Source: Sipunculus nudus (Eukaryota > Annelida > Sipuncula > Golfingiida > Sipunculidae). From it: a stretch of DNA of 64,000 nt. The notes beneath the pieces are model-generated. The model was not told the origin of the DNA. It ran no database searches and was given only the letters and a program-made list of their open reading frames with translations. Of the stretch, positions 7,691-51,166 are shown in pieces. A program made the position numbers and the translations under genes. Each line of letters opens with the position of its first letter. Within the stretch, counting starts at the first letter, position 1. The stretch covers positions 67,982,929 to 68,046,928 of the forward strand of contig CM049312.1 of the NCBI GenBank assembly GCA_026874595.1, written 5' to 3'.

Positions 7691-8470
7691 ATTAATTTAG
7701 GATTTCTAGAGAAAAAGCTTAAAAACCTTTGAAAATCTTCTTCTCTGAAACTGTCCAGCCAAATTGTCCAATATTTCACGGAAATGTTTCCTGGAACAAT
7801 CTGTTTCAATTTTATTCTAAAGGTTCCAGTTCGGTGATTTTTGACCGAGTTACAGTTAGTTGAACATAATCCTTTGCATGCTAAAATTACAATCTCAGAA
7901 ACGGCTGGAGCTATCATCATCAAATGTTTTGTAAATGTATGTCACTTGAGTCATATCTAAAATTGAGGTATTGGTGGCGCCAACTGCATTGGTCTTTTTG
8001 TGCGGGGGTCAACGGTGCCTGAAGCATACAGAGGGCTGCAAAAAACTTCTTCTCTGAAAGCGTAAAGCTAAATTGTTTAATATTGCAGAGAAATGCTCCT
8101 AGGGTAGTGCTTTCTTAATTTTGTTCAAATGGTCTCTGTTCAATGACTTTTGGCCGAGTTATGGTAGGCTGAATATAGTCAAATGTTATAGCAGCCCATT
8201 TCTGCTGAGTGGCTACAAAGATCTTCTTCTCAAAAACCACTGGGTCAAATTCTTTAATCTCACACATGAATTATCCTTAGATATTGATAATTCAAATTTC
8301 TTCAAATGGTTTGAATTCAGTAATTTTCTTAGATTTTATATAGGAAAGGTTACAAAAGATGAAAAATATCTCGCATTTTGGTTTGAATGGCTCCAGTTCG
8401 GTAAGTTTTGGCCGAGTTACAGCAGGTTTAACTTGGTCATCTGTGCAAAAAAAGCATACTAAACCTAATT
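7690..8470. repeat. Degenerate tandem repeat with 'cttcttctctgaaa' units
   Basis: Units beginning 'cttcttctctgaaa' near 7737, 8047 and 8222 continue with 'aaattgt.caatattt' and 'ttttggccgagttac'. Spacing is irregular (about 310 and 175 bp). One GGTGGCGCCAAC palindrome-like site lies at 7973-7984. Confidence 0.6.
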
Positions 8471-8485
8471 TCTCAGAATAGAACA

Positions 8486-8935
8486 GAATGAGTTTCGTAA
8501 ATGATAGAACTGAATGAGTTTCATACATGATAGAATGATAGAACAGAATGAGTTTCGTACATGATAGAACAGAATGAGTTTCGTACATGATAGAACAGAA
8601 TTAATTTCGTTCATGGGAGATGAAGGAGGCTTGTACTGCTTGAAACAAAATGGATTTCGTTCATGATAGGGCAGTTTGATTTTCGTACACGAAGGATCAG
8701 GATGTGTTTCGTACATCATAGAGGAGAATGAGTTTTGTAAACGATACAGAATGCAGAATGGGTTCCATACCTCATTGTACACACGAATTCCATGCACGGC
8801 AAAATGAATTTCATTCAGAGAATGAGTTTCGTTCATTATTGAGCAGAATGAGTTTCGTTCATTATTGAGCAGAATCAGAATGAGTTTCGTTCATTATTGA
8901 GCAGAATGAGTTTAGTATATGAAATATCAATACGA
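8486..8935. repeat. Minisatellite with 'gaatgagtttcgtacatgat' units
   Basis: Many copies of a roughly 30-bp unit 'atagaacagaatgagtttcg', irregular in length. The minus-strand frames across it are products of the repeat. Confidence 0.8.
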
Positions 8936-8971
8936 GGATAGTACATGATAGAGCCGAAAAAATCCCGGGCG

Positions 8972-9095
8972 TAAATACCTTTCGAGCTCATCCTGATCTC
9001 CGACAATACTTCCCTAACGTTTGAGGTCATCCTGATTTGGACCATACTTCCCTATCGTTCGAGGTCATCCAGACCTCGGATCATACTTCTCTGAC
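8972..9095. repeat. Three-copy ~46-bp tandem repeat
   Basis: 'gaggtcatcctgatttggac' plus 'catacttccctatcgtt' occurs three times with mismatches. Confidence 0.65.
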
Positions 9096-9498
9096 ATTGA
9101 TGCGGGAACGAGAATTACTAAATATTGAAACTGACATTGACTTTTGGATGATTCTATTGAGCCTGTCATTGTAGTTTCATCAATTACAATGTGTGACCTG
9201 CGGCCTCTTGCTGAATATTGATTGCCCGAGTGAGCGTCACCGTGTATAATACCTCAATTCGAGACCTTTGTAGGCCCCATAGGTTACAATGCAACTTACT
9301 GATTTATTCATAAACGATATGGATCTTCTGTGTACACAGTGGTGTAGCAGGTGAACAATTGTAAAAGGGTCCTCCATTTTTGTCAACATACTAGCTCATA
9401 TAGATGTATTTTGCTGCCTTTTAGCTAAGCTCATTTGATGTTAAGCAGCCAGTACATATATCAATACCTTAATTTATTTAACATGGATTGTACAAGCT
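9096..9498. other. No feature seen
   Basis: Non-coding sequence without recognisable repeat or gene. Confidence 0.5.
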
Positions 9499-9699
9499 AT
9501 AATAACTTATACGAGGCGCTCTCCATGCCTCGGATTGTGGCGTTCAGTAGTCTGTAGAGTCGGAGGAAACCGGAGGACCAGGAGAAAACCACCGACCTTG
9601 GATGGGCTACTGCAACCCTCTCTCATGGTCACACCAGGGATCGAACCCGGGTCGACAGTGGACAGAGCCGGGCATTTACCCACTCTACTGTCCAGGCTC
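9499..9699 (-). mobile_element. tRNA-derived SINE
   Basis: On the minus strand the head has an A-box-like 'tagagtgggtaaatgcccgg' and a B box 'gggttcgatccc'. The body contains 'ggttttctcctggtcctccg' and 'gtttcctccga', a central block found in many marine-invertebrate SINEs. The same family recurs at 59735-59880. The terminal 'gaggc...gcctc' could fold. Confidence 0.75.
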
Positions 9700-10462: not shown

Positions 10463-10467
<5 letters not shown>

Positions 10468-10522: not shown

Positions 10523-10527
<5 letters not shown>

Positions 10528-11168: not shown

Positions 11169-11232
<64 letters not shown>

Positions 11233-15069: not shown

Positions 15070-16740
15070 TCAAATATTTCTCAACCTTTGGCGGGGATCC
15101 CATACCACACTCGCTTTCCCATGGAGGCGATATAGGCCCCCAATTCTAGAGCCTCTGTCCGCCCCTGCAGTGATAATGTATGAATTTAAAAAAAGCGGAC
15201 AAAGCAGGAGTGCATCAGCACTTATGCTAATTTTAATATGACAGTATCGCACAGAAATGTTCTATCTCTCTCAAACACAAGCGCACACATTGTGGTTTAG
15301 TGAAGAATATGTTGCGATTATCAAGTTAAAACACAAAAAATTCCACAAATAAAAAATTATGTATATATGTATAAAATTTACTGCCTCATTTTGGTTATTT
15401 TTTTTTAGAAAAAAAAAAACAAGTAATTTTGTAATGTTTCTGTTAAAGAAAGAAAAAGTCTCTTTAATCATGTTCGGTCAGGATATATCCTTTACTCTAG
15501 TTTCTATCAGGATAACCGATTTACTGGTGTACCGTAATTTCGTGTCAGCGTCAACTGTGGTTTATTCATGAAACACTTCTGTTGTGGAGAGTAATGTGTG
15601 GATGCTCATGAAAAATATCTTAGCATAAACTAAAGAAATGGACGGATGTTTCACAAAAGTATATAGTTATACGTCAACAGCCATGTGATCCAAGTATATA
15701 TGTCAGTTTAAGAAGAAATATTTAAGAAATTAACAGTTTCAATAAGAAACAATAGATGGCGCTAAGACGGCAGTTGAAAGCGAAGGTACTTATCATCCAT
15801 TTTGCGAACATTTTCTTATTGAAAGAAAGAAGTGTTCTTAATTTTACGGATCAAAGGTGTGAAGATTAAAAATTTGTCTTTATCATTTTAAAGACTAACG
15901 TGTGAAATGATATGTTTAGAGTCTTGTTTAAGATAACACAATTATTTCGTTAATAAATACTTGGGTTCAAACCAGTTATTGAAATACAATGCCACATATG
16001 TCAAATAAGTAAACATTTAATTAGTCTTAAAATTATAGAAGATTATTTAATTTTCTGAATATGTCTATGTAAAAAATATAATTTTTCTATATACATATAC
16101 ATATATCTATATTTTACTTAATTACATATATGCACAAGGCTTTCATGGGTGAGTTATATATGAATTATGTCGTAGTCGATTGTATGGGTCAATCTGTAAT
16201 AAATTGTGATTATATAAAACGTGTCAGATTTTTTCCATGCATATTAATAAGTATTTGTAAGGCAAAAGCAATTAAGTATATAATTCTCATGCACGTTGAT
16301 TGGGAAATAATGCTAGCGGGCGGCTTTTTATTTTTATTTTTTCCCCATAAAAATAGCGTTGTATATTATTATTTCCCATGCACTGACAACGAAATGACCA
16401 CCAATGATCAAAATACGATATACCAAATGCTGTCAATGTAAAGGTCGAATTAGTCCAAATTTTGAAATGATCCTCCAAATATGTGACATATGTATATCTT
16501 TTACGTGTCATAATTACATACCCAGCAGATTATACAGAAATATTGCTGTCAAAACCTTGCGGCGAACCCCAGACACGCGGACCCCACGGACGGTCCTGAC
16601 ATGTGGAATCAGCATCGAAATGCATTGTGGTCCTGCATTGTTCAACAAGATCTGAGATAGTTAAATTAAGAAATACAATAGAAATTTCTTTAAATTTAAT
16701 ATAATATTTGTTATTTTAATTTTAATTGGAAAAGCAGTAT
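15070..16740. other. No gene seen
   Basis: AT-rich sequence. 'gtccgcccctgcagtg' near 15160 resembles a reversed CAGGGGCGGA transposon end. A 103-codon frame at 16130-16441 has no recognisable motif and AT-driven composition. Confidence 0.5.
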
Positions 16741-16744
16741 AATG

Positions 16745-17800
16745 GAATTCCGTTTATAAAACGATCTAGGGAGAGCAAGGTGACGGGGGCGGTGCCTGAC
16801 AAACATATGATACTCATAGCTCGCCGGAACGCAGTTAGGAGAACTTATACCGTACCACCGGCGTCGGCGTCATCCGTTACACCCAAGGTTGTATAGTTAT
16901 TTGTTAACTCTATAAACCAACTTTCTCCAGATCTTATTTTTTGGGTACTTAACGAACAAAATTTGTACAGATCCCGACCCAACTCAGGGTTAAAGTGTTT
17001 TACTTAACTCTTAATAACTCAGCAACCACTTAGCATATGGGTTTCAAATTTCAAATATGTTTTGTAACGGGGAACAAAAATAATCCCTATGACTTAGGGA
17101 TCAAAAGTAAAAATATCAAGGCCTCAGGTCTCCGTTGTTCATGAACAAGTCAGGTTAAAGCTTTTTTGTTAGGCTCATTTCCCCATTGCTATTATAGACA
17201 TTTCATTTCAACTTAATACACTGATGTACAGTGAAAATACCTAGCACAGCTATTAACAATTTTTACCATATCCGCGAAAAAAAAGTTTTTTGGATACTAT
17301 GTTTTTGACCGGGTTCCGCCGCCGCCGCGTTCGTTTCCGGAGAACTCCTCTGAGACTACTCGACTGATTTTTCTGAAACTTATACTAATTATCGGGTCAC
17401 ATGTGAACTGGTGCCTAACCAATTGGCGTTGACCTCTGACCTTTCCTCTCTCCAGTGCGTCCATCTGTGCGTCTGTTTTGACACATTAACCCACATATCT
17501 TCGGACTGGTTTGACCAATCAGGAAAAAAAAATGTACAAATGTAGCCCATAGATAGCTTTATCAACCATGTTTGCACAGTGTCCATCTTTTCGTCTGCCT
17601 TGGGTTAAAATCACTCATACCTTTGCAGTGGTTTGACTAATTTACCTGCAATTGGGGATGCGTATACATCCTAGATACCTTTCTTGATTTAATGACAGGT
17701 GGCGCCAACAACATTCACGTTCACGATGCAGACATCCATGCTTTTATCTCCGGACTGGTTTGATGTATCTTCCTGAAAATTTGCATGTGTTAAGATCTCA
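16745..17800 (-). mobile_element. Tandem-array element, inverted diverged copy
   Basis: From 17260 rightward this is the reverse complement of the 3' half of 26575-27716: 'cgttcgtttccggagaactc', 'gtcacatgtgaactggtgcc', 'ccaattggcgttgacctctg', then 'aggtggcgccaacaa' at 17698. The left part has 'accggcgtcggcgtcatccg', a GC-rich block typical of the element's flank. Non-coding. Confidence 0.65.
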
Positions 17801-17829
17801 TACATACATCCCTTGAAATTTGAAACGCA

Positions 17830-18867: not shown

Positions 18868-19684
18868 TGATCACATCTAAAGTTAATCTCATTTTTTTTT
18901 CTTTCAGACGATAAAATACCTGTTATGAATATTAGGGGAAAATGTCATGCTGGTCAGCTGATAACATGACTCGTACCTATGCATTATGGAAAAAAAAACT
19001 CGACATCATATACTGTACGGGTGTGTGTTTGTATGTGTGTAACCCGCTAATGACAAAGTGTCACTCCGTCTGACAAGACCAAGGCAAAAACTAGGGTTAA
19101 AAACAGCAAGTGCTCAAATGATGATTCTGAGTAACTGCTCTTTAAACTGTTTTGAAGCCTCCCATTACGGCAATCTTCCTCAGCGACCTGTCTTTTTATT
19201 TTATAGATACGACAAAACAGGAGTATATCACTGCTAACTGGAGGAAGCATTCCAGTGATTTGTATTTTAACTCTCGCGAGACCTGCCTTTTGCCTCATTA
19301 CTGTAGAGGCGATTATACACTTCCTCTCGAGGCAAAAAGCAGTAACTACACAGGCGATGATTTTGATTTGAATAATTGCCCTTTAAGTCGCACATTCCAT
19401 CATTAACACTAAGATTTTCCCGATTGTCTTAAACGTCTCCTTGAAACAATGGCCACAAAATGCAATTGTAAACTTAGACTTGGGTTACATTTGCGCTATC
19501 TTGTAACAAGTGACCCATGGGTCATGACGCTCAGCTGACTGGGAAGTGATTTGCGAAAGGAAATTTTATCATCTGAATGGTAGTATATACCCATTCAACT
19601 GAAGCATCAAACAGGTTAACCAACAGGCTGAGATTGTGTCTGTATTAATATATCTAAAAAGAGAGAAAAAATGCATACTTTAAA

Positions 19685-21060
19685 AAAATTACATGTGGCT
19701 CCACCAGTCTGCAGAAACTAATAAAAACACTTAATGGTCAATTTCCATGCAAAAAAGCATGATAGTCTCTGGATTAGTTGTTCAGATACTTGAGCTTTTG
19801 TATCAAAGTTTCCATTATTCTTAGGGATACTTTGTAGTCCTATAGGTTGGAGGATATGGGTAACAGAGACCTAATTTCAGGTTTCCACAGACACTATTCA
19901 ATGGCCTCCTTGCATGACAAAAATGAAGATTCTAGGTCCAGTTGTTACAATTTGTACCCTGTTGACAGATAACCACATCTTTAAAGGTCTCAAAATTAGA
20001 GAAAAAGAATTTGAAAATTTTGAAAAAAAAGAAGTGGCGCACCCAGTCTACTGAAACTGATGAAACACGTCATGATCAATAAGTATGCCAAAAGTCATGA
20101 CCATCAGTGTTGAAGTTTTTGAGATACTTGAGTTTTTGTATCAAATTTTTCATTATTCTGGGAGGTACTTTGGAGCCATACAGCTTAATGGATATGGGTA
20201 ACAGAGACCTAATTTCAGGTTTCCATGGAGATTTTTCATGGGTCTCCCTGTGAGTAAAGAATGAAGATTCTAGGTCCAGTTGTTATGATTTGTGCCCTGT
20301 TAACAGATGTTCCTATCTTTAAAGGTCTCAAAAATAGAAAAAAAATCGAAAAAAGCCCGAACAAATACATGTGGTGCCACCAGGCGGCAAAAACTGATGA
20401 AACACTCCATGATCAATATCCATGTAATAATTATGGTGATCTCTGCATTAGTTGTTCAGATACTTCAGCTTTTGAATCAAATTTTCCATTATTCTGAGCT
20501 GTACTTTGGAGTGCCATAGCTCAAAGGATATGCTTAATTCCATATTTCCATGGAGACTTTTCATGGGTCTCCCTGTGTGTCAAGAATGAAGATTCTAGGT
20601 CCAGTCGTTACAATTTGAACCCTGTTGACAGATAACTACATCCTTAAAGGTCTCAAAAATAGAGAAAAAAATGGTAAAAATTTGAAAAATACAGGTGGCG
20701 CCACCAGGCGGCAGAAACTGATGAAACATATCATGATCAATATGTATGCCAAAAATCATGACCATCAGTGATGTAGTTAATCAGATATTGAAGTTTTTTT
20801 TATGAAATATTTGACTATTCTTGGGGTACTTAGGGGCCCCATAGCTTAAAGGATATGGGTAACAGAGACCTAATTCTGGTTTCCATGGAGACTTTCATAG
20901 GTCTCTCAGAATGTCAAGAATGAAGATTCTAGGTCCAGTCTTTACGATTTGTGCCCTGTTAACAGATGTCCACATTTTTAAAGGTTTCAAAAATAGAGAA
21001 AACAGTTCGTGAAAAATCGAAATTTACAGGTGGCGCCACCAAAGGTTAAAGTGACAAAAT
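19685..21060. repeat. Four-unit tandem array, ~330-bp period
   Basis: 'tctaggtcc' recurs at 19931, 20269, 20594 and 20928 (spacings 338, 325, 334). Other landmarks: 'ggatatgggtaacagagacc', 'ggtttccatggagac', 'aaaggtctcaaaaatagaga' and 'ggtggcgccaccaggcggca'. The palindrome GGTGGCGCCACC or a variant occurs once per unit. Confidence 0.9.
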
Positions 21061-26334: not shown

Positions 26335-26574
26335 GAATAAACAGAAGCTACCTGACCAGGAAAGGTTAATTCTCGCAGTGCAAGCTCAAAACATAATTGC
26401 TGGGCTGAGAGACCTTGGGACTTACAAATATAGCATCTGATCTCAAAGAAGAAAAAAAAGCGTTATCTTTTTCATCTGACAATTAACTATTAGATTACAC
26501 TCTAATAAAATAATCATACAATGAAAAAAAATCTAATCATATCTCGAATACGGGTAGTCGACAAGCGATTATAT

Positions 26575-27716
26575 GTATCCGCCAAAATCAGAGTAAGACG
26601 GGTGAAGTAAGGCATAGATTGGGTGGCAAGGGGAAACAGAGTTAGATGTGTTACATATTAGCATGGATGCCTGCCACGTAAACATAGTTGTAGGTGGCGC
26701 CACCTGTAATTTGAACGAGAAACTATCCAAGATACACATACAAAATTTCAGGTGGAAAAGTCAAACCACTGCCGAGATATGAGTGATTTTAACCCAAGTC
26801 AAACTAACAGATGAACGCTGTGCAAAAATAATTGCAGGTGGCGCCACCAGTTTCTTGTATGATAATGAGCTATGTAAGATCCAAACACAAGCAAAACTTC
26901 AGGAAGATACGTCAAACCAGTCCTGAGATATAAGCATGGATGTCTGCAGCGTGAACGTGAATGTAGGTGGCGCGACCTGTCATAAAATCAAGAAAGCTAT
27001 CCCGGATGTATACACATGCCAAATTTCAGGTGAATAAGTCAAACCACTGCCGAGATATGAGTGATTTTAGCCCTATTCAAACGAATAGATGGATGCTGTG
27101 CAAAAATGGTTGCAGGTGGTGTCACCAGTGTCTCGATAATAAAGAACTATGTGAGATCTTAACACATGCACATGTTTAGGAAGATACGTCTAACCAGTCG
27201 GGTGATATAAGCATTGGACGTCTAGTGCGTGAACGTGAATGTAGGTGGCGCCAACTGTCATAAAATCAAGAAAGCTATCCAGGATGTATACGCATGCCGA
27301 ATTTCAGGTGAATTAGTCATTCCACTGCAGAGATATGAGTGATTTTAACCCAAGGCAGACGAACAGATGGACACTGTGCAAACATGGTTGCAGGTGGCGC
27401 CACCATTTTTGTGTATGTTATAAAGCTATCCAAGGGCTACATTTGTACATTTTTTTTCCTGATCGGTCAAACGAGTCCGAAGATATGTGGGTTAATGTGT
27501 CAAAACAGACGCACAGACGGACGCACTGGAGACAGGATAGGTCAGAGGTCAACGCCAATTGGTTAGGCACCAGTTCACATGTGACCCGATAATTCGTGTT
27601 AGTTTCGGAAAAAAATCAGTCCAGTACGTAGTCTCAGAGGAGTTCTCCGGAAACGAACGCGGCGGTGGAAGCCGGTCAAAAACATAGCATCCGCAAAACT
27701 TTGTTTTGGCGGATAC
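26575..27716 (+). mobile_element. Inverted-repeat-bounded element filled with dimeric tandem repeats
   Basis: Ends GTATCCGCCAAAA (26575-26587) and TTTTGGCGGATAC (27704-27716) are a perfect 13-bp inverted repeat. Inside, 'aggtggcgccacc'-type sites start at 26692, 26836, 26965, 27114, 27243 and 27392, i.e. alternating spacings near 129 and 147 bp, a dimeric unit of about 275 bp. The right end also has a small hairpin (atccgcaaaac...gttttggcggat). No coding capacity. It resembles tandem-repeat-bearing elements of bivalves ('pearl', Helitron-related), but the 13-bp terminal repeats are not typical of Helitrons. Confidence 0.75.
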
Positions 27717-27744
27717 AATTATGATACGAAAATGACATGTATAC

Positions 27745-37600: not shown

Positions 37601-40600
37601 TAATATTCTCTTGCTGATTGAGACCAGAAGTTACTCAACTTCATAATAAAACGGTAAGAATTAAACAGAAAAAAATACTTACTTAAATATTCTATTGTTC
37701 TTCCTGTTGTAACTTGCAAAGGTTATCATAGAACCAAAGGAAATTCCAATAGAATTGAAGTTCTGAATTGCAGCATTTGTCCAGACCTAGAATAAGAAGG
37801 AAAGAATATTACTACCACTTAAAATTGAATATTAACTGTTTTTATATTCTTTGAGTGTATCATTTTTATGTGCATATTAAGATTTTCTATCGTTCTTCCG
37901 GGACAAATTCTCGACAAATTATTCTTAATGTCATCAAGGAGGTTATGTTTACACCCGTAGATTTTGTTCGTTTCTTTGTTAGCAAGATTATGCAAAACAT
38001 TATTGATCCGATTTCAACTTTTGACACGGGGATCATAAAATTATAAATTTGGATCATAATAAAGGTCTGATAGCCACATAAATTACTCTTGCAGACGCCA
38101 ACAATCCTTATATTTTTACACTAAAGGTAGAGTAGAAAGGCAGCGGCCTGGGAGGACCCCATGTTACCGTAGATCTATATCATAGGGGGGGGGGGTTCAT
38201 TAAGTTTTCTTTCCGTTGGCGGAGGTATGCGCTCCACTGAGTGCAGTGCTAGTTTTTATTTTTTATTATACGTACGGTAGGCTCCGCAAGTAGGTGCCAT
38301 CTTGGCTGGATGAAGAATCTGACACCATCGATGGCTCCCGGCAGAGTGAGTCCCCGAACCAGCAGGATTATGATAACTAAATACGGAAAGGTCGCTGTCA
38401 CATACACAACCTGTATTAGAACACGAACATTATTAAAAATCATGCATATGCCGGACAAAAGCTAAAATATAAAACGGTGATCATCTAGAAAAATGATATG
38501 TAATATATATGCGAAGCTAAAGAAAATCATTTGTATTGAAGTGTGTGTATTTGCATAGCTTCAGAACAAGAAGCTTGTAATTTTATTATTTGTAATGCAA
38601 CGAGTGACCTTTCACCTTTCCCCACCTTTGCATTCAACACCCTTGGGTTATGTGCTTCTCCTCTGTTGTCGTTTTCGCATTTACCATGTTTACTAACACC
38701 ATGTAGATAAACATGCACATATATCCGTCACAGAGGTGTTATAAGAAACCTTTCTTAAGAGGAATTACCTGCAGTTCATTAAAATGTACCATACGTAAGC
38801 CAGATATAACGTAAATGCTACAGATAAGACAGGAGAATAGCTGTCTTCTAGGAAATTTTGGATCTGCACAAACGTCTAATATGCGTTGGTTGCCTTTTGG
38901 TTCGCGAGGGGTTAATTTCGCTATATTCGCAAATGGAAATAATCGCGAATGTTAAACCCTTGGGAATAAGATGTCCCATCATCCAAGATGGGACATATCC
39001 ATCATCCAAGATGAACAAGATTGGACGATTCATCAGCAGAAAAAGGGTTAGTTATATGAAAACATGATTCATTAATCTGGAACCTAATCTATGCATGTAT
39101 GCATGTCCCCGCAAACACGCATTAATTATTGTTAAACGTCACCTCAAATATGTCAACTGTGACACAGGTCTCACTATATAATGCCTGTTACAGAAATGAG
39201 GGGGTATTGTAGGATTTATTTTCATTTTATAATAACCGCAAATACTGCACCAGCGGTTATTAGATTATATGTAGGTTCTGGTGCAATCACAAAAATGCAA
39301 TACTCGCGAATAGTTCAAAATAAAAAAAAAATATCGCGAAATTTCAGCCTCGCGAATATGAAGCCAACCGCAGTAAGTGCCCTCCGTCGGCATAAAATAA
39401 GGCTTATAGATTTATATTGCCAGTCTATAAAACAGTTGATTTCCAAGGGATCAGAATCACTATATAAAGAGACCTGTTATTTTTAAATTTAAATAATTTC
39501 AAATTGATCTCAATTGTGAATATATAGTATGTATATATAAATTATATGAATATGTATATTTTATGTATTTAGGAATGAATAATAAATGAAAATATGTTTA
39601 TAATAGATAATGCATTATCATAATATATATATAACAAGATGTTCTCAAACTGATATGAGAGTGAAAGTATTAATGTGAGTGTTCAGTTTTTTGTCCATGG
39701 GCAATGGTCAGTAAGGTCAAGGTGAAGGTGGGGGTTTACAGTATGATGTCACTGGCGATGCACTTTTGCCTTCCTGTTCACTCATCCCCTGGGGAGCATA
39801 CAACCAAAGCAGCCTTTTTAGGCGCTAAAGGGTTAATTGTTCAGCATTTGATTGCTGAATATGACCAGTACCCAGGGATTCCTAGGTGGAAAGAGCGCAC
39901 CCTTCTGGTAAAGACTTCGGTTACAAGTCTAAGGACAGACGGCGGTCAGTGCAGGAAGCGAACCAACAAGTCCTGCGCCTACCCAACGTTCCAGAACAAA
40001 ACTGGAAAATAAGAACCGCACAATTCCAGAATTATAACTGCAAATTTTTAATATACAACAGCATAAATAGAAGTCAGCTGCATGTTAAATATACTTTGCT
40101 GTTAATTGCTATAAGGGGTCGACGATTTAATTCAGCTAGCGAGTATCGGCTTTAAATTCGATATATCGGTTCGATTCCGGCAATCTCAATTATGATATTA
40201 TTCTGTCGGAGAGTTATGTCTATATATAATGTTCTCCTCTAATGATATTATGATAAATATTTTAATGCATCAATCATTTAAATCGACCAAATGATATTAA
40301 AATGTTTTTATACATCGCTGCACTATCGTATAATGTTGGTTAGTAGATGAAAAGTTAAACAACAGTGCCGCGTAAATCCTTTGTCTGGTTTATCTGTTCT
40401 TCAGTAAAATTCAGTATAACTGGGGCGTCAATATAGAGGGTGGGGTGGTATATAACCCCCCCCCCCCACTTTTCAGCAAAGGGGGGGGGGGGGGTTAAGT
40501 GGTAAGTGGTTCCAAATTTGATTACCATCGATAATCGACTTATTAATGGATCGATGCATCGAATATTGAGTGCAGTTTTAACCTAAATTCAGTGAAACCT

Positions 40601-41920
40601 TTTTTTTCAGTTTAAGTAGAAAGTTATACAGAAACAGGTTTATTGTGTAATAGTTTAACTTCCTTTTGCAAGTGCCTTAAATTTAAAGCTACGATTTTGA
40701 AATTTGCGGGGTATTTAAATCTTACGACAAAAGAAGGAAAACTGTATATATTCACCTGTTAATTTATTGGAAACTAACATCAAACACATATTTATTATTA
40801 TTTCACGAATATTTTCACTTGCACCAACAGCAATCCTTTTTTTCATATTATCGGTGCCTTCAGATTATGCAACTTCCGTTAACCAGGAATTCTCACATTT
40901 CAGCCAGTTATTCCGAGAAATTGAAGTTTGAATTAAATTACCATCAGATAAGATGAGCTGAATGCTATTGGCTTATTTATGTAGGTTGATATTTTGTATA
41001 TATTACCTTTCCAGTCCACCTGATTCCCTTCCAGAGACAGATGTACACTAATATCCAGGTGAGTAGTAGAATTAAGAGCAGGTCCCACCGTATTGGTCCC
41101 ATGTCGTGGATCCCGGAGCTCTGCTGCAACACGCGCCGCCTGGTGTCAAATAAATAAAACGTTAAGAATTCATATATGTGACTGATATTAATACGTAAAT
41201 CAATTCCTCTCTTAGTCCACTTCATGGTCATTATAATCTAGGGAGATATTCAATGCATTCACCACATTCGGAGAAATTCAAATTCATTCTGGAAGTCATA
41301 AGAGATTATAAGGAACAGAAGACACTGTGAAATGTGATTACGAAATGCACAAAATCCTACAAGTTGGGGAGGGGGGGGGGGGCGGTCATAACATGCGAGG
41401 AGGCCATTTGGTATATGCCAAAATCGAGAAGAACACAGCGTAGGCAGTAATTAAAGTTAATTATCATTGATTTATTATGCAAAAAAAAAACGCACACAAT
41501 TAAAATAAATAAATGGGTTCCATAGTTTAGGTTATAGGAAACTTTAATTCTGTATTTTCTCGAAAATCGCGAATTTGAAACCCTCGCGAAAAAAATGACA
41601 ACTACAGTATTCGCCGATCGATGGGTACATTACAGTGCTGCCACTCTGGACTTTACAAAAAACAAACTACAAGATTTTACATAAAAGAGTACAGAATTGT
41701 CTGAATAAAAGTTTGAAGAAGTATAAATCATCGTAAACTGTACAAGCAAGTTTAATATTTATGTTTCGCTTTGAGAGAAGCAAGAGGTTTGATATTTATC
41801 AGCTATTCAAAATTTAAAACATATGAATCCTAAGTGTTCCAATTTTCGATCATTTTCTTGAGCCAATCTCCGCTCGAAAAAATTGATATTATTATGAAAT
41901 GCTTACAAAGCATATAATAA

Positions 41921-41979
<59 letters not shown>

Positions 41980-42927
41980 TGCCTATATATATTAATATAT
42001 AAGTATGTGAGTATAGGCTATAAAATAATTTCCCATAAGATAAAGATTTGAGAAAAAAAAAGAAAAAAACATTATTAATACCTAACAATAAATTTACATA
42101 AAACAACTTTTATGAATAAAGCGTATAACAGCCCATACCTGTAAAAAAGTATAGAGTAACAACACCGAGATATTGATTTTACAAATTATTAATTAACGTA
42201 TAAATATATATATATATATATAGAAGGTAGAGTTACCCTCCGATGTAAAGTGCTCTATGGCCTACAGACTAGGCCAGAGCGGTATAACTCTGGAGAAAAA
42301 CAACACTGTTAATTCACAACAGTCTGTTTCACGGGATGCGACCCGATCATCAGGTTAATGTGGTTAGAATGAAGCTAACGGCGTGGTTGGTATGTATATT
42401 GTGTATTTTCATAGTATATGTGTATTTTTATCATATGTATACTACTGATATGTTCACTGCTCCAAGACCCTATTAGAAATCAGTTCAATATGCTAATTGA
42501 GCATCCTGGTATATATCTTTGTATTATATATAAAATTTACAACAATAAATATCCTCTTTGCCCCGCCCTGTTATGTTCCAGTTTCGCACGTGTACCTAGC
42601 CATGACAACATGACACTCAGGCCTTCGGAAATAAACTGATCGTCTTCAGTATATCTAAAATCGACGTTCGGGGTGACAAGCTGTCGCTAACGTGTACCCC
42701 GACCAATCCTATTGTGCACCCGAGGACAATAGGATCAGTGTCAGTGTTTCACATGCCCCCCCCCCCCCCCCCCCCCGAATCGCACAAAGCATAATCTCGT
42801 AATCTCGTAAAGTCTCGGCTTTTCAAACCACGCCGTTAGCTTCATTCTAACCACATTCACCTGATGATCGGGTCGCATCCCGTGAAACAGACTGTTGTGA
42901 ATTAACAGTGTTGTTTTTCTTCAGAGG

Positions 42928-42994
<67 letters not shown>

Positions 42995-45595
42995 ATATGC
43001 TTATATACGCGTTCATTATTTGTATGGGTTACACAGTATCACAATGTATTGCTGTACATATTGGGATGACACGGGACTGCCATCAGCGTGTATGTGAGTG
43101 TGTGTTTATATTTACTCGAAGAACTCGGTGGTTGACGTCACGCTGTCATTTGGTTTGGTCATGTTCATGTTTCCAGACCAGCAGTTCGGGGTGTTCCATG
43201 TGTTGTTACAATGTAGCCATGGCAACCGAGCCTGAAACGTGCTGAAGAGGTAGTAGAATGCCCACGTCATGATGACGTTGTAATACGTCACAAACAGGAA
43301 CGAGAGAACGACAGTAGCTGCTCCAGCACCTGAAAAAAAATATAAATTAGGAAAAATTATGGGCGTGTTTTGGCGCTCTAACCATAGTTTGGCGCTCTAA
43401 CCATTTGGTGCGTGTTGGCGCTCTGGTTCAGGGTTTTGGTTGAACCAGTGTCGGACCAAGCTGAACCGAGAACGGTTGTTGGTTCTCCGCAGACAGAGGA
43501 TGGTATATCAGGCCCTCATATAAAAATAAAGTTCCGGGGCCTATACATCAGTGGACGTGTTCCTGGATCAAGCATAAGTGTAATTGGGCACTGAGTGCAA
43601 ACGGGTTGAAACCCAGTCGCTTCAGGTTCATCTAGACTGGTACCCTGCTCTATTATGGCCCTCAGCCAAGCATAGAGACAGGCGTACAACGCCATCTTAA
43701 GTACTCCTAGTTGCAACTCCTGACTAACCTGTAGACTGGTTCCAACTCCAGTATGCACGCTCATACCGGTTGCCATGGACGTTCACGCGATCCTGGTTGG
43801 TTATCCGTGAAGATTTCTTATAAAATAACTTTCTTTAGTTATTTCTAGTTTTCAAATATTTAAGAATGAGTTGTTGCACAAAAAGTGAATAATGGATGTA
43901 TAGATAATACGATATACTGAATCTTTGATATTCCACTGTATGTAGCAGTGATTTATTATTAATACCTATTAATCTTATCATTATGTCACACGTTATGTAC
44001 AGCCAACCTTTGGTAACTTCTCTGAACAAACGAAATGCTTATTTTTATCATATATAATACATACTGGAGTTGGAACCAGTCTGCCAGGGGTACAAACGAT
44101 GGCGTTGTACGCCCGTCTCTATGACTGGCCTAGAGCAGCGGTGCCATAATAGAGCGGGGTACCAGTCTAAGGTTCATCTTGCCTTGAAAAACACAATACC
44201 ACAACAAGCTTTATAGGGAAAATCGGCCGGATAAACCATCTCATTTTAGGTCTTAAACCAACTTCTCTTCATAACAAAAACACCTGCATATTTTAAGTAA
44301 CGCGACAAATGCTGACACTGATTTTCATTTTGTTTTCGACCAAGCAGTGTTTTAGTGCAATCCAGTTACCAGCTTCTGTTCACAACCGATCGAACAACTC
44401 GCCAAAACGGACCCTATATGTCTGCAACCCTCCATTGCCCCCTGCAGCCCTCCTTGAGATTTTCATAGGGTTCCGTTCTTGATTGCGTGGGTTACATTGT
44501 GTTCCATGATTTTCATTAGGGGTCCACCCCCCCCCCCCCCCAAAAAAAAAAGTTGTCCCATATCCAAATACTGATACAGAAATAAACTCATTTACCCCAG
44601 TCAACCTCCTGTCACTACATAGGGGGGGGGGGGAGCTTAATAGTGAAATTGGGTATAAAGAGTGTATACCCCAAAACCATGCACCATTCAAGTAATGTTC
44701 AAACTTAACCTTTATTATCCATCGTATTAGTCAAAGTAATAATTAAATGTAGTAGATTGACAAAAAGGTAATTAGAGCTGTTTCACCTGAAATGGATACA
44801 CTGGTGGTATCTTAAATAAAAGCTGTATAAATACACCCATTCCAATTCAAACATAACAAACTGTCATTTTCTCCCCAAAACTAAGATGACCGCCATATTA
44901 ACGGATACATCATACATTTATTTATACTTACATGTGAATGCAAGGTACTATCGCTCATGATATCAATTTAGCAAACATGGGGTTTGAATCAATTTGTCAA
45001 GCATATATTAGACTCGCATATATGTCCACCCAGCATTACAAATGGGTACCGGATTAAGTGCGATTTGCGTTTGGCGGGTGGTTGGGCTCTTGGCGTTATC
45101 AGGAAGCTGATAAATTGTAAGGTCTTCTGAGTAAGTTATTGGAACTGTTACTTTTTTCATTTTTGTTTCTATGTATAGAACCATCTTGTTGACTCAGATA
45201 TTTTTACCAAAGTACTCGTTTACCTTGAAGGAAGGGACATATTGCCTGCAGCGCCCCCACCGGTCCCAGACTGGTCATCTGTCCCATGCCGTACTCCAGG
45301 TACAGCAGCGGGATACCCACGAATATCAACATGATGAAATACGGGATCAGGAACGCACCTGTCGTTAAATATGTAAAATATATGTTAATTTATAAAAGGT
45401 GATAATATTTATGAGTGTTAATATATGTTTTACGCTAATGTATCACAAGAAAATTTCCTTTATACTGAAATCTATTTATTATATATCTACGAGTGTTTTT
45501 AATTTCACATCTACAAACAACAACAGCAAAGATAACAATAGCAATGGCAAAAATGATAATAATAATTACAAAAAAAAAACAACAACAACAACGAC

Positions 45596-45635
<40 letters not shown>

Positions 45636-46219
45636 GTAAAAGGAATGATTATGATGATTATAACAATGATAATAATAATTATGATAAAAATAATAATAAT
45701 AAATAAGTACATTGTTTAAAGTTATTTCAGTTGTAAGGTTGTTTTATTATAATACTTAATATTACCATTCTTCCAACGGAAAAATTATACCCAAGTCAAG
45801 CCTGATCTGCATATATGTCAACAAATTAACTATGGCATGTCCAAATTTAAGGAACAATGGCTGTAGAGAGTAAGATTTATTTATAAACTATTTATTTGTG
45901 GGATTTGTATACTACATTGTATTAATAAAACGGAAATGACGTCACCTCCGCCGCTTGAGTAACATAGATAGGGGAAGCGCCATAGGTTGCCCAGTCCCAC
46001 AGCGTTTCCGACACACGCCAAAATAAATTCTGCTTTGTTGGACCATTGTTGGCGGCCGGGTTGGTGTGGGGACGAGTCGGCTTGGCTCACTTGAGTAGAT
46101 GGCGTTGTTTCTTGCACGGAACTGTATGCAGGGGGTTCCCCTTGGTTCTCTGACGTAATGTTGCCGTCGCCCGGCCAGGCCGACATCGTGACCTCGTAGG
46201 TTTTCTTACGTAAACTCAT
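30864..46219 (-). CDS. SLC6-family Na+/Cl- coupled transporter, complete, 12 coding exons
   Basis: This is a plasma-membrane symporter of the neurotransmitter/amino-acid transporter family. Joining exons 46219-45946, 45358-45224, 43329-43116, 41139-41007, 38410-38276, 37786-37683, 35433-35309, 34557-34445, 33361-33221, 32609-32510, 31953-31853 and 31193-30864 gives 1905 nt, i.e. 634 residues plus stop; every junction is GT/AG and phase-consistent. The TM1 signature [13 protein letters not shown] is present. The TM1 position that is Asp in monoamine carriers is Gly here, which points to an amino-acid or similar zwitterionic substrate. Chloride-site residues are conserved: Tyr of IPYF in TM2, Gln and Ser of QNFNS in TM6, Asn and Ser of NSGTS in TM7. 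The Na+-site segment AVDSQFAS is present in TM8. Extracellular loop 2 has the paired cysteines and N-glycosylation sequons. Length is normal for the family. Substrate and subfamily cannot be fixed by eye; glycine/neutral amino acid or an invertebrate-specific clade are the options. Confidence 0.95.
31637..31663. repeat. (TA)n microsatellite in SLC6 intron 11
   Basis: About 13 units, preceded by CA-rich sequence. Confidence 0.9.
31853..31953 (-). CDS. SLC6 coding exon 11: TM11
   Basis: Encodes [16 protein letters not shown], the conserved cytoplasmic link between TM10 and TM11, then TM11 ([16 protein letters not shown]). Acceptor tttacag, donor TTA|GTAAGT, phase 0. Confidence 0.92.
32510..32609 (-). 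CDS. SLC6 coding exon 10: TM10
   Basis: Encodes [20 protein letters not shown] and the rest of TM10, ending [10 protein letters not shown]. The acidic residue of QIIDKYSSG lies in the extracellular-gate region of the family. Acceptor ttttcag, donor TATG|GTATGT, phase 1. Confidence 0.93.
33221..33361 (-). CDS. SLC6 coding exon 9: end of TM8 and TM9
   Basis: Starts [15 protein letters not shown], completing TM8, then [18 protein letters not shown] (TM9) and FPCITH. 47 codons, phase 0 on both sides. Acceptor tttacag, donor CAT|GTGAGT. Confidence 0.93.
34445..34557 (-). CDS. SLC6 coding exon 8: loop 4 and first half of TM8
   Basis: Encodes [19 protein letters not shown] (extracellular loop 4) and [19 protein letters not shown] (TM8). 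The intron splits the conserved VDSQ|FAS sodium-site motif exactly between codons. Acceptor gttgcag, donor CAG|GTTGGT. Confidence 0.93.
35309..35433 (-). CDS. SLC6 coding exon 7: TM7 and start of loop 4
   Basis: Completes the Lys codon and reads [19 protein letters not shown], the TM7 segment with the conserved Asn and Ser of the chloride/Na1 region, then [13 protein letters not shown] and the start of extracellular loop 4. Acceptor ttaccag, donor CAAG|GTATGC, phase 1. Confidence 0.93.
35434..37682 (-). other. SLC6 intron 6, no embedded gene
   Basis: AT-rich. Contains (ATT)n at 36425-36456 and a long poly-G tract at 36725-36746. No transposon end recognised. Confidence 0.6.
37683..37786 (-). 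CDS. SLC6 coding exon 6: TM6
   Basis: Encodes [18 protein letters not shown] and [18 protein letters not shown]6 is the half-unwound substrate-binding helix. Gln and Ser of QNFNS sit where chloride ligands lie in this family, and ASYN closes the helix. The unwound segment reads SIGISFGS rather than the Trp-containing form typical of vertebrate GlyT. Donor AA|GTAAGT, phase 2. Confidence 0.93.
38276..38410 (-). CDS. SLC6 coding exon 5: TM5 and extracellular loop 3
   Basis: Starts [20 protein letters not shown] (TM5), then [16 protein letters not shown], the family's extracellular loop 3 segment, ending LLAEPT. Exactly 45 codons. Acceptor taatacag; donor ACC|GTACGT. A second GT four bases downstream would break the frame. 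Confidence 0.93.
38880..39375. mobile_element. CGCGAA-rich MITE in SLC6 intron 4
   Basis: Left end ...GTTGGTTGCC followed by GGTTCGCGAGGGGTTAATTT; right end CGCGAATATGAAGCCAACC. The ends are mutated relative to the copy at 2455 and the centre is different. Non-coding. Confidence 0.65.
39690..40150. repeat. Probable dispersed repeat in SLC6 intron 4
   Basis: GC-richer block with 'tcactcatcccctggggagc' and 'aaagggttaattgttcagca', followed by a possible B-box-like 'cggttcgattccgg' at 40168. A 102-codon frame on the plus strand has no family features. A repeat or SINE relic is more likely than a gene. Confidence 0.3.
40419..40500. mobile_element. CAGGGGCGTCAAT-family fragment with C and G runs
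   Basis: 'ggggcgtcaatatagagggt' followed by a C run and then a G run, as in the related copies at 51597 and 58430. Confidence 0.55.
41007..41139 (-). CDS. SLC6 coding exon 4: end of loop 2 and TM4
   Basis: Completes a Glu codon and reads [19 protein letters not shown], the conserved segment before TM4. TM4 ([17 protein letters not shown]) and KGIRWTGK follow. Acceptor acaccag, donor AAG|GTAATA, phase 0 out. Confidence 0.93.
41560..41612. mobile_element. CGCGAA-type MITE, right-end fragment
   Basis: Carries 'aaatcgcgaatttgaaaccc', 'tcgcgaaaaa' and a decayed end 'caactacagta'. Lies in SLC6 intron 3. Confidence 0.5.
41928..41976. repeat. (TA)n microsatellite in SLC6 intron 3
   Basis: About 24 units. 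Confidence 0.96.
42223..42935. mobile_element. Fold-back element in SLC6 intron 3
   Basis: The left arm (42296-42390: 'acagtctgtttcacgggatg', 'cgacccgatcatcaggt', 'gaatgaagctaacggcgtgg') is repeated inverted at 42826-42925. The ~435-bp centre is unrelated and contains a poly-C run (42757-42776). Both outer sides abut (TA)n arrays. The outer left part is shared with 6943-7040. No coding capacity. Confidence 0.85.
42929..42998. repeat. (TA)n microsatellite
   Basis: Begins directly at the truncated right arm of the fold-back element. Confidence 0.96.
43116..43329 (-). CDS. SLC6 coding exon 3: TM3 and extracellular loop 2
   Basis: Encodes TM3 ([19 protein letters not shown]) with the family Tyr pair, then extracellular loop 2 with [16 protein letters not shown]. 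The two cysteines match the family's loop disulfide, and NNT, NMT and NDS are candidate N-glycosylation sites. Acceptor tttcag; donor GA|GTAAAT creates a stop if read through, so the splice is required. 214 nt, ending in phase 2. Confidence 0.93.
43620..44187. mobile_element. Long inverted repeat in SLC6 intron 2
   Basis: 'ctgctctattatggc', 'catagagacaggcgtacaac' and 'gactggttccaactccagta' at 43645-43765 recur inverted at 44064-44160 ('gttgtacgcccgtctctatg', 'gccataatagagcggggtac'). About 300 bp of unrelated AT-rich sequence separates the arms. Likely a fold-back or MITE-type insertion. Confidence 0.8.
44519..44635. repeat. Poly-C/poly-A and poly-G tracts
   Basis: A C run and A run at about 44525-44552 are followed by a G run at about 44622-44634. 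They may mark ends of an unidentified element. Confidence 0.6.
45224..45358 (-). CDS. SLC6 coding exon 2: TM2 and first intracellular loop
   Basis: Begins by completing the Gly codon of exon 1 and reads [17 protein letters not shown], the TM2 segment with the conserved Tyr of the chloride site. It continues through [17 protein letters not shown] to CPFLQG. Acceptor cgacag and donor G|GTAAAC are clear; 135 nt, phase 1 in and out. Confidence 0.93.
45520..45700. repeat. (AAT)n-rich microsatellite in SLC6 intron 1
   Basis: Pure (TAA)n at 45596-45635 with flanking imperfect AAC/AAT units. The open frame across it is repeat-driven. Confidence 0.9.
45946..46219 (-). CDS. SLC6 coding exon 1: N-terminal tail and TM1
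   Basis: Encodes residues 1-91 plus one base. The ATG at 46219 is the first in frame and lies 13 bases after an acceptor (tttgtttcag, AG at 46234-46233), so a non-coding upstream exon exists. The cytoplasmic tail (about 60 residues) is rich in Ser, Thr, Gln and Pro and contains PPAY at residues 29-32, a PPxY-type WW-domain ligand. TM1 (about 64-88) ends in [13 protein letters not shown]. The exon ends in GGA G|GTGACG. Confidence 0.93.
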
Positions 46220-46231
46220 GGCTGCTGTTTA

Positions 46232-48609: not shown

Positions 48610-49214
48610 TACTGTGGTTGGCTGGTTATTCGCGATATTTCTAAAAGGGAAATTATCGCGAAATTAAAACCGTCGTGTATAAGACGATCTACACAGGTGA
48701 AAATACGTTAATACTTTAACCTCATTGGCATCTCATCTACGTTATTAATGTCTGTAACGTCACAAGGTAAAAATTTTGACATTCCTGAAAGGGAAATTAT
48801 CGCGAAAATAAAACCGTCGTGTATAAGACGATCTACACAGGTGAAAATACGTTAATACATAACCTTATTGGTAACTCATCTACGTTATTTATGTCTGTAA
48901 CGTCACAGAGTAAAATTTTTTTCATATTATTAGTATTTACAGATCTTTTATGTTAACTGTAAGTCAAAGATTGTTATTATGAATAATATGTGATATTTTA
49001 CATTATCTTTCTATAATGAACACCATTTAACACCTGTTCGATGATCCCTGCATGGACCCTTCTAAAAATTGTAAAGATTTTTTCGAGAAAAAAAAATTAA
49101 TACGATAAAGAACAACTAATCTGTGCCATTTTACTGTAGGTAGTATTCGCGAAAACGGTGAAAAGTGAAAAATAATGAAATTTTTACATCGCGAATTGGA
49201 AGCCAACCACGGTA
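48610..49214. mobile_element. CGCGAA-type MITE with internal tandem duplication
   Basis: Left end TACTGTGGTTGGC, right end GCCAACCACGGTA. The block starting 'gggaaattatcgcgaaa' occurs at 48648 and again at 48791, so about 143 bp inside the element is duplicated in tandem. Non-coding. Confidence 0.7.
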
Positions 49215-50230
49215 ATTCTACGTCTGATCTATGTCTGCGTTACGTCTGTGTCACGTCTTTGTACTTTACGCCGACATAGCATTCTATGCACGAGAAATTA
49301 CGCTGTATAAATTAAAATAATAATATTTAAATAATAATATTTAGAGCTTGTTCACCCTTCCTTGAATTGTAACATTTTAAGGGCGTATATTCCTTAATGT
49401 ATAAAATAAACTTCTCAATATCCTAACTTGTAGATCCGCCCCTGATATGTCTTCGTATCAATAACTGATGGTAAATAATTAAGCAAATCGTGGCCAAGCT
49501 CATGTATCTAAAGAACTTCACGGTCAAAGCAGACAGAGGAAGAGTGGTCCCTTAGCTTTCCGTATCCTTGCCCACAAAGGACACCAGACCGGCCGCAATT
49601 TACATACTAGTCATGGGCAAAAAGTTATTACAGGGAGATTAAATCCATTCATTTCCCACACAACGGCAATAGATAACCCATCTTGTATATGCGTTCATTC
49701 CCGTTCGCGTGTGTGTGTGTGTGTGTTGGTGTGTGTTTATGTGTTTGTGTTTGTTCATCACATAACTAACGCAATCATGAATGGAATCTCATGAATTTCT
49801 TAAGACATTTAGGGAATGGAAAATGTACAATCTTTTAAGATTTTTGGTGTGGATCTGTCACACGATTTGGATTCAGGAAATGTCATCAAGGAATATTCAC
49901 AAATCACTATTTGCACAAATAAACCTGGGAATATTACTATTATAGCACATGTCTGGGTCGATGCAAAGTGAGTTCTGATGGGGGTCATTTTTCATATTTC
50001 GGCATAAATCCAGGAGAAATTTGATATATTTGCTTATGAGACAGCCATGATCCATCTATCAGAAACTATTGCTCTGATCAGTGGGTGATATTGCAGCCCC
50101 ACCTATCTAGTCTGGAATGCAACTAAATTGATCTTCAAGTTGAAAATAATTGATTTAAGCGACTACAGGTATCCGATAAATAACAGAGGCATGGAAAAAG
50201 TTAGGCATGAAATCTCTCCTTACATGACAT
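49215..50230. other. No gene seen
   Basis: Non-coding, with a (GT)n stretch at 49711-49728. Confidence 0.5.
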
Positions 50231-51166
50231 CCCTCAAAATATGTGGCATCAGAGGTGCCAAAGTATTCCAAGACATACATTTACGAAACTAAAGATTAAT
50301 GTAGGTGTCACAACCAGTCATGTGTAAAAGATAATGCCATCCTTGATCAATGAACATGCAAAATTTTAGGCAGATACGTCAATCCACTCCTGAGATAAAT
50401 GCCAGATAGTATTCTTCAATAAGTGATTGTAGGTGGTACCACCAATCCTGTGTTCGAAGAACACAAGTTGGATGAACATGAACATTTCGGGCCTTTTCAC
50501 TAAATGACTCCTTACTTACGTGTGATTTTCACCAAAATCCGTTCTACAGATGGAGGCCAGATGAAAACTGATAATAGTTGGCGCCACCAGTCTTGTACAC
50601 AAGATACACCATTCCAAGATCTATGCACTTGCATATGTTCAGGAGGATACATCATGCCTCTCCTGAGAAAAAGGCATCAATGTATTCTACAAAAAAGGAA
50701 CAGTAGGTAGCAACACCTGTCTGGTCTACGAAAGAGCTAACCAAGACGAATAAACGTGCAAAATTTCAGGCTGATACATTCACACACTCCTAAGATTTGT
50801 GCATTTTCACCAAAAACAAATTTTTCGCCACGTGAAAACGACGGTAGATGGCGTCACCAGACATTTGTGGAAGATGGAGGTATCCACGAACTATGGATTT
50901 GCAATTTTTCAGGCCACTATATATTGAACGAATACTGAGATATGGGTTATTTATCACTCATATGCACAAGTGGACACTGCGTGCAAAAGAAGTGTAGGTA
51001 GCGCCACCAGACTTTGTTAGGCACAAGTTCACGTGACCCAATAATTAGGCTGGGTTAAAGAAAGATTGGTGCCAGGGTCTTAGAGGAGTTCTGTGTAGAA
51101 GAAGGCGGCGGAGGCAGAACCAATGTAAAAATATAGTATTCGCAAAACTCTTGTTTTGGCGGATAC
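50230..51166 (+). mobile_element. Tandem-array element, third (older) copy
   Basis: Palindrome-derived sites 'gtaggt.g..ccacc' start near 50303, 50431, 50576, 50705, 50846 and 50996, the same alternating ~129/~146 spacing as 26575-27716. The right end 'ttttggcggatac' (51154-51166) and its hairpin are conserved. The left terminal repeat was not found. Confidence 0.75.

Follow-up and report, generated by a model that had tools for sequence, protein, structure and literature searches.

Why should one 12-bp palindrome, GGTGGCGCCACC, recur unit after unit in tandem arrays of different period? The question is raised by a 64,000-nucleotide stretch of the Sipunculus nudus genome (assembly GCA_026874595.1, contig CM049312.1, positions 67,982,929 to 68,046,928; hereafter the window), in which the palindrome occurs in three arrays, termed A, B and C, and in scattered single copies. 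The anatomical part of the answer, which we hold with considerable confidence, is that the palindrome is a conserved motif in related unit heads and that array B lies in a HINE-type transposon family, family B. It is further proposed, tentatively and as a reading that falls a little short of probable, that the palindromes are candidate CTCF-core sites amplified in the central repeats of HINE-like elements; that CTCF would bind the array sites, and that the element would benefit in any way, we infer from sequence.

At up to two mismatches, 17 copies of the palindrome lie in the window, compared with a mean of 0.48 in 100 shuffles (maximum 3; none reached 17). The 17 include a lone copy with two mismatches at position 36673, where there is no array. 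Successive palindromes are spaced by 144, 129, 149, 129 and 149 bp in array B, by 128–150 bp in array C and by 324–339 bp in array A. The positions listed in a preliminary description of the window were accurate to within 1 bp, and one array A site, at 19694, had been overlooked. The genome-wide enrichment that the same description put forward as a check was also borne out: the exact 12-mer occurs 111,729 times in the 1.43-Gb assembly (153 contigs), compared with 14 occurrences of a control read backwards, a density of approximately one per 12.8 kb. A motif-blind sample of 20 stretches of 10 kb agrees with this density, with 20 exact palindromes in seven of the stretches. By unit models and inspection, 10 of these copies belong to family B/C, four to family A, five to a further family, E, and one was left unassigned. 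Across 41 stretches, comprising the window, random loci and chosen loci, palindrome spacings peak at 125–134, 145–149 and 335–339 bp.

The palindrome had been described as marking unit boundaries. It does recur with each unit in arrays A, B and C, but it is no universal array mark: among the arrays of period ≥100 detected by Tandem Repeats Finder in the random sample and the window, a count that omits array C as too diverged for listing, four of 12 hold at least two palindromes (at up to two mismatches), and in the random sample alone the fraction is two of 10. Furthermore, array B continues past its final palindrome with a unit-like stretch at 27389–27529 (41.9 bits), so that 'boundary' reflects a mere choice of where the unit is cut.

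Judged by their ends, arrays B and C and a third copy, array D, are a single transposon family with Helentron/HINE-like termini. The array D stretch at 17.3–17.8 kb is 85% identical to positions 27152–27715, and the flank at 51.0–51.17 kb is 74% identical to both the array B and the array D stretches. All three have a left end in which a short spacer separates the subterminal inverted repeat (subTIR) GTATCCGCCAAAA, recognisable in D in a decayed form, from a complementary repeat, approximately TTTTGCGGATAC. By BLAST, the family B left flank matches 17 other sampled loci, in 13 of which the match reaches the element end, and the right flank matches 10. The sampled loci include L030–L049, which were picked for their listed exact palindromes, so that the figures using them (conservation, divergence ratios, YA flanks, 14-base scores and flank BLAST) come from a biased sample; L002–L009, which overlap one another, were excluded. 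With the window included, 14 left and nine right ends align to sharp borders, and in the 14 left-end copies the subTIR lies ~1–3 nt from the aligned 5′ end. Right ends carry the inverse subTIR followed by a hairpin with a 7-bp stem and a 5-nt loop, decayed in some copies, and then CTAGT 12 nt further on in eight of nine copies. A T precedes TGTA(T/C)CC at 13 of 14 aligned left ends (G in locus L036), and eight of nine right ends pass from CTAGT into T. Genome-wide, the left-end hairpin pattern is found 5,617 times (2,803 and 2,814 on the two strands) and its control not once on either strand.

Family B thus unites a 5′ subTIR, a complementary repeat, an inverse 3′ subTIR with a stem-loop, and a microsatellite with central repeats, a combination reported for HINEs, which are non-autonomous Helentrons (PMC4067079, PMC7492417); the GTCY-like microsatellite is degenerate, and it is missing from array C. 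Candidate autonomous partners were sought with Helitron_like_N, for which there are 143 matches among the 150 scored of 195 candidates, seven of them with open frames exceeding 2,200 aa. In 12 stretches of 3.4–3.6 kb at these matches (12 of the 143), no family B subTIR was found at up to one mismatch; the stretches stop short of the element ends. The seven long open frames raise the separate possibility that autonomous rolling-circle elements may still be active in this genome.

Families A and E are less completely delimited. In family A a 34-bp box of terminal type, with the palindrome TGACCCATGGGTCA, recurs; no counterpart of the left end of array A in the window turned up in the other sampled loci, nor were any ends located for family E. 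The relationship of both families to family B is seen in their unit heads. A profile of the B/C/D head with the palindrome omitted scores the family A consensus head at 5.4 bits (reached by one of 3,000 shuffles) and the head at 7973 at 3.9 bits (six of 3,000), compared with a top score of 1.2 among 3,000 random 100-mers from the window. In profile tests of single units, shuffles reached the score of unit A20033 in none of 1,000 cases, of A20370 in two, of A20694 in four and of the 7973 head in none; A19694 and several reverse-orientation controls gave no match. Aligned in the palindrome's register, the bodies of A and C are identical at 43 of 82 bases (0/2,000 shuffles) and those of A and short B units at 35 of 82 (3/2,000), followed by short B and E with 35 identical bases (4/2,000), A and E with 32 (21/2,000) and C and E with 29 (80/2,000), the last a weak pairing. 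For consensi built from the genome sample, shuffles reached the alignment of A with long B units in none of 3,000 cases, of A with E in five and of long B with E in eight.

The preliminary description had called the arrays unrelated. That view is ruled out by the common ends of B, C and D and by head alignments of A, B and E that exceed chance with the palindrome left out. Shared origin, which it had offered as one explanation, is supported by the same alignments, and the simpler situation that it set against its own proposal, one diverged family, largely obtains: families A, B and E appear for the most part to have diverged within a single repeat superfamily, differing in unit length and, where known, in their outer ends.

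Palindrome-free tandem arrays also occur. One sampled locus, L013, contains a 288-bp unit repeated 7.4 times at 3346–5473 and a 177-bp unit repeated 4.0 times at 8631–9334; the latter is related to the family E flank and adjoins a palindrome-bearing unit. The idea that the palindrome is necessary for tandem amplification is weakened by this second array, in which family E-related repeats expand without it.

The selection suggested in the preliminary description would lead one to expect better conservation of the palindrome than of the sequence around it. Between families this is so: the consensi of A, B/C and E are identical at 10–11 of its 12 positions and at 34–54% of the remaining head, while those of long B, short B and C units agree at 11–12 of 12 and at 61–68%, respectively. 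No block is better conserved between families than the palindrome. Within families, units were located with the palindrome masked, and per-column and pair counts were taken from full-length copies (33 of 39 matches for A, 52 of 84 for long B, 53 of 55 for short B and nine of 17 for E); the per-column palindrome figure for short B units, in which columns were lost through masking, was left unused. Palindrome columns match the consensus at 0.929 versus 0.845 in family A, at 0.965 versus 0.881 in long B units and at 0.963 versus 0.889 in family E, and are equalled or exceeded by one of 99, four of 101 and two of 89 other 12-column windows, respectively. In the window itself, the excess is clear for array B as a whole (0/117 other windows) and for B and C together (0/120), moderate for C (7/120), and unexceptional for the three long B units (35/115).

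The rate of palindrome change relative to the body falls as copies diverge. Among pairs of A, long B and short B units with CpG excluded, the palindrome/body divergence ratio is 1.28 below 5% body divergence, 0.71–0.72 at 5–15% and 0.29–0.37 above 15%; with CpG columns, the series runs 1.69, 0.85, 0.77, 0.48, 0.40 and 0.48 by rising body divergence. The binned pairs are not independent of one another, and the ratios are therefore descriptive. Counts of private and shared mutations were dropped in their favour, because at ~10% divergence and 50 copies recurrent hits blur what is 'shared'. A ratio that falls with divergence is as expected from constraint on propagating lineages combined with near-neutral decay of single insertions. 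These comparisons support slower long-term change in the palindrome than in the body, and they support selection that would act on element lineages more than on each copy.

The alternative that survives best, although we consider it rather unlikely, is shared origin alone, with a functionless palindrome carried in an inherited module and conserved through slow lineage turnover and chance amplification. The families do share the whole head beyond the 12-mer, the palindrome is unexceptional in array A of the window and in its long B units, and between the closest copies it decays about as fast as the body, with no significant palindrome deficit in disjoint nearest pairs (42/680 versus 497/6,322; Fisher p = 0.13). 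What this alternative accommodates less readily is that the palindrome changes at approximately one third of the body rate between distant copies (CpG excluded) and is nearly the top-ranking 12-column window in families A, B (long units) and E. The earlier suggestion of selection, and the comparison of palindrome with unit on which it was to be judged, are supported between families and in the genome sample, but not in array A or the three long B units of the window.

A second alternative, less likely again, is that the palindrome serves the element's own machinery, through recognition by Rep, RPA or a helicase or through template switching, or binds a dimeric host factor (an E2F-type protein being presumably one candidate), and that copies lacking it propagate less. 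Perfect dyad symmetry with similarly conserved halves, slower change in the long than in the short term, and the long open Helitron frames of this genome would all suit such a role. Against it, the flanks of the 19 window sites, decayed ones included, are asymmetric: position −1 is A in 18 and position −2 a pyrimidine in 18, while at position +12 the 19 divide into 14 with A and five with T. A directional, CTCF-type core fits this asymmetry better than a strict homodimer site does, and the dimeric DNA-binding protein invoked in the preliminary description is therefore not required, even where the selection that it implied finds support. The expansion of family E-related repeats in L013 also indicates that the palindrome is unnecessary for amplification there, and the 12 stretches at Helitron_like_N matches, which do not reach element ends, contain no palindrome at up to one mismatch.

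The tentatively preferred reading, that of a CTCF core, starts from these flanks, by which the conserved block extends beyond 12 bp. Together with an adjoining YA, the palindrome reads YAGGTGGCGC, a match to the CTCF core YAGRKGGCRS. Of 94 exact palindromes sampled, 93 give this match on one strand or both, having YA on one or both sides, and 34 have it on both. Genome-wide, one strand holds 71,847 and the other 71,878 matches to YAGGTGGCGCCACC, compared with two on each for the control, and by these strand counts at least 31,996 exact sites are flanked by YA on both sides. In the window, seven of the 19 sites match the core exactly in the family orientation. The canonical site is taken as CCASYAGRKGGCRS, the consensus quoted in the accessible part of PMC6746451, and its array-type counterpart is TGTAGGTGGCGCCACCTGTC.

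One CTCF-like gene, on C11 at 67.04 Mb, stands out among the 150 scored of 2,086 candidates: its match to the seven fingers used as query has 63% identity and E = 2.7e-79, and the next best reaches 2e-41. Zinc-finger helices contact bases through positions −1, 2, 3 and 6. In this protein, the seven-residue recognition helices of zinc fingers 3 and 5 are identical to the human ones, and that of finger 4 differs at one position outside −1, 2, 3 and 6. The full consensus CCASYAGRKGGCRS occurs 5,308 times genome-wide (2,600 and 2,708 on the two strands) versus 76 for the control (37 and 39), a ~70-fold enrichment, part of which may sit in repeats. This enrichment suggests that a CTCF of canonical specificity is probably active in this animal, and away from palindromes AGATGGCGC is found seven times versus 0.83 expected in 264 kb. 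CTCF orthologues are reported from molluscs, annelids and rotifers in the available text of a review (PMC10658182), and two cephalopod studies, as represented in the accessible portions of PMC9023564 and PMC12407938, place motifs resembling that of CTCF at loop anchors or at the borders of domains.

Several related motifs were noted alongside. Outside the arrays of the window, solitary CTCF-like motifs occur at 15753 (TAGATGGCGC), 32038 (TAGGTGGCGC), 33708 (CCGCTAGGTGGCAG) and 47589 (TAGATGGCGC), and core matches there number five versus 1.0 expected (15 versus 8.4 in the larger sample). Unit A20694 holds CCACCAGGCGGCAG at 20701–20714, which matches the CTCF consensus at 13 of 14 positions and overlaps the right half of the palindrome. 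Two palindrome variants outside families A, B and E, GATGGCGCCACT at L018:3719 and GATGGCGCCAAC at L028:2293, are preceded by TA or CA and resemble the CTCF core as YAGATGGCGC.

The CTCF-core reading may be set out as follows. The repeats of families A, B and E would go back to one ancestral module of ~100 bp, headed by YA-GGTGGCGCCACC, and the palindrome would be the conserved head motif in the central repeats of related Helentron-type non-autonomous families (HINE-like, and best shown for B). Spread of these elements would have produced more than 110,000 exact sites, and the motif would have been retained in element lineages as a binding core for the host CTCF. Because of its palindromic symmetry, the CTCF core would be readable on both strands, fully or nearly so, and an array would offer several orientation-neutral sites of low to medium affinity for CTCF and perhaps cohesin. 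The element might then gain from open or insulated chromatin, either in escaping silencing or in being copied.

A number of observations weigh against this proposal. At the array sites the CCAS portion of the consensus is missing: the best match to CCASYAGRKGGCRS among the 94 sites is 10 of 14 bases at 14 sites, 11 at 72, 12 at six and 13 at two, so that 86 of 94 match at 10–11 positions, scores of at least 10 and at least 11 being reached by 321 and 64 of 3,000 random places, respectively. Both halves of the palindrome are equally well conserved, yet the right one (CACC) falls outside any one CTCF core. YAGRKGGCRS is no more than mildly enriched away from palindromes, with 15 matches versus 8.4 expected in 264 kb (largest simulation, 14), and the resemblance of the YAGGTGGCGCCACCW motif to CTCF was noticed post hoc, in a comparison limited to that factor. 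In array A of the window, conservation of the palindrome shows no excess (0.764 versus 0.752; 166/306 other windows equal or exceed the palindrome), and with CpG columns the long-range palindrome/body ratio, 0.40–0.48, lies above one third. The palindrome of long B units is already slower in close pairs (ratio 0.45, from just seven palindrome differences), which makes the lineage-only pattern non-uniform. Lastly, the family E-related repeats of L013:8631–9334 amplify without a palindrome.

Matches to the CTCF fingers at E ≤ 1e-20 number 159 from the 150 scored of 2,086 candidates, mostly on C16, C7, C9 and C11 among those listed, which suggests that the C2H2 zinc-finger class is expanded in this genome. 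That abundance also lends some colour to a third alternative, in which one of the many transposon-policing C2H2 proteins binds the palindrome, but we consider it very unlikely, as a silencing target would be expected to be lost rather than conserved in element lineages and no specific factor is known.

Among known elements, the closest likeness is to Cg_HINE of the Pacific oyster, which, by the accessible text of PMC7492417, is dispersed and abundant and shares a left subTIR with a complementary repeat, a GTCY-type microsatellite on the left, an inverse subTIR with a palindrome on the right, and central tandem repeats (mostly 140–180 bp in oyster). The elements described here differ in carrying a GC-rich palindrome across families and units of 129, 144–149 and ~336 bp. 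The same text mentions palindromes of Cg_HINE only at the 3′ end, the comparison being one of descriptions. The DINE-1/HINE elements of Drosophila, mites and mosquitoes, as covered by the portion of PMC4067079 consulted, similarly have subTIRs close to the 5′ end, a 3′ stem-loop 8–35 bp from the terminus and, in some, tandem repeats; their insertion sites are T-rich, as those of family B may be. The 3′ subTIR lies ~33 nt from the end in family B and 38–60 nt in mite HINEs, and that portion mentions no common palindrome in the central repeats. Family B right ends, with CTAGT in eight of nine, come near the CTRR end of canonical Helitrons, unlike DINE-1/HINE.

CTCF sites borne by repeats have precedents. 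The human DXZ4 macrosatellite carries a CTCF site in each tandem unit, at a single locus and with units of ~3 kb; the present arrays likewise carry one CTCF-like site per unit, but they are short and dispersed over the genome. SINE B2 is the best-known mammalian case of a transposon-borne CTCF site. As set out in the accessible parts of PMC7520972 and PMC9902604, mammalian mobile elements also spread CTCF-type motifs, with near-consensus sites and measured occupancy; here, the motif is a palindromic core lacking CCAS, it is tandemly arranged in rolling-circle-type elements, and binding is predicted.

Searches for the motif elsewhere yielded little. Scans of viral contigs for the paired palindrome at two spacings gave no match, and a scan for TGYAGGTGGCGCCACCWGTC gave one, in tightly packed bacterial-type reading frames, which was judged to be chance. 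A scan of genome contigs for relatives returned none, in a search that took in no phage, plasmid or E. coli collections. Scanning the window for open reading frames (ORFs), tRNAs and Rfam families turned up nothing relevant to the arrays. Text searches of the open-licence literature, to the extent of its searchable text, for GGTGGCGCCACC, AGGTGGCGC with CTCF, TAGATGGCGC, and GGTGGCGCC with repeat, transposon or mollusc words retrieved, among the papers listed, no repeat paper bearing the motif. The elements and repeats of the window are collected in Table 1.

Table 1. Coordinates of the palindrome-bearing repeats and elements in the window, with mismatches to the palindrome.
Feature	Position	Strand	Remarks
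Array B element	26542..27720	−	Complete HINE-like element of family B (non-autonomous, Helentron-like); ends accurate to a few bp, fixed against 13 further left ends and 8 further right ends elsewhere in the genome
5′ subTIR GTATCCGCCAAAA	27704..27716	−	Part of the genome-wide left-end hairpin pattern
Inverted repeat complementary to 5′ subTIR	27687..27699	−	Predicted hairpin partner
Degenerate GTCY-like microsatellite adjoining array B	27504..27529	−	Read from sequence; common to array D
Central tandem array B	26689..27405	+	Long (144–149 bp) and short (129 bp) units alternate
Array B palindromes	26693..26704, 26837..26848, 26966..26977, 27115..27126, 27244..27255, 27393..27404	+	Exact, exact, 1, 2, 1 mismatch(es), exact
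3′ subTIR, inverse of 5′ one	26575..26587	−	
3′ terminal hairpin, consensus GTAGTCG-CTTGT-CGACTAC	26554..26572	−	Decayed in the array B copy
Array C element	50150..51169	−	Older, diverged family B member; left bound approximate; subTIR 51154–51166, right-end motif ~50169
Decayed central array C	50300..51008	+	Six palindromes: 50304 (3 mismatches), 50432 (2), 50577 (1), 50706 (3), 50847 (2), 50997 (1)
Array D element	17260..17820	+	Truncated family B copy, opposite orientation; decayed subTIR 17268, palindrome 17698 (1 mismatch)
Central array A	19685..21041	+	~335-bp units (~336); palindromes 19694 (2 mismatches), 20033 (3), 20370 (2), 20694 (exact), 21029 (exact)
Terminal-type box, family A, with palindrome TGACCCATGGGTCA	19505..19538	−	34 bp; six further sampled loci hold 8 more copies
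Family E unit head with palindrome 7973 (1 mismatch)	7860..7988	−	Bounds approximate; aligned with 7 other genomic copies

Between the array B element (26.5–27.7 kb) and the array C element (50.2–51.2 kb) lies an SLC6-type neurotransmitter symporter gene, with exons on the minus strand at 32394–46228 and the Pfam domain SNF in six of nine reading frames tested. The window also contains a very homogeneous minisatellite at 2955–6526 (a 34-bp unit repeated 105 times with 99% matches) and, at 52932–54174, a 27-bp unit repeated 46 times that is open on the minus strand inside a 310-aa ORF, with an ALVSEVMIS-like peptide repeated.

To our knowledge, no function has been assigned to the central repeats of Helitrons. 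Helitrons with satellite-like central repeats make up ~9–13% of oyster genomes, according to the accessible text of PMC11136912. A motif retained unchanged as its repeat otherwise diverges would offer a handle on why such repeats exist. If the motif is a CTCF core, rolling-circle transposons would carry architectural-protein sites outside vertebrates, a bearing on the origin of chromatin domains in animals for which data are sparse (PMC10658182, in its available text); open-licence literature pairing CTCF with Helitron, MITE, tandem-repeat or Helentron terms showed, among the papers listed, no report of CTCF sites in HINEs. Arrays hold up to eight palindromes (in L013), and some lie beside genes. 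It is conceivable, although on balance doubtful, that a Helentron-type superfamily has scattered more than 110,000 CTCF-core sites, readable both ways and approximately one per 13 kb, across this genome and uses, saturates or rewires the host CTCF/cohesin system. Were this so, chromatin architecture in the lineage would have been shaped largely by rolling-circle transposons.

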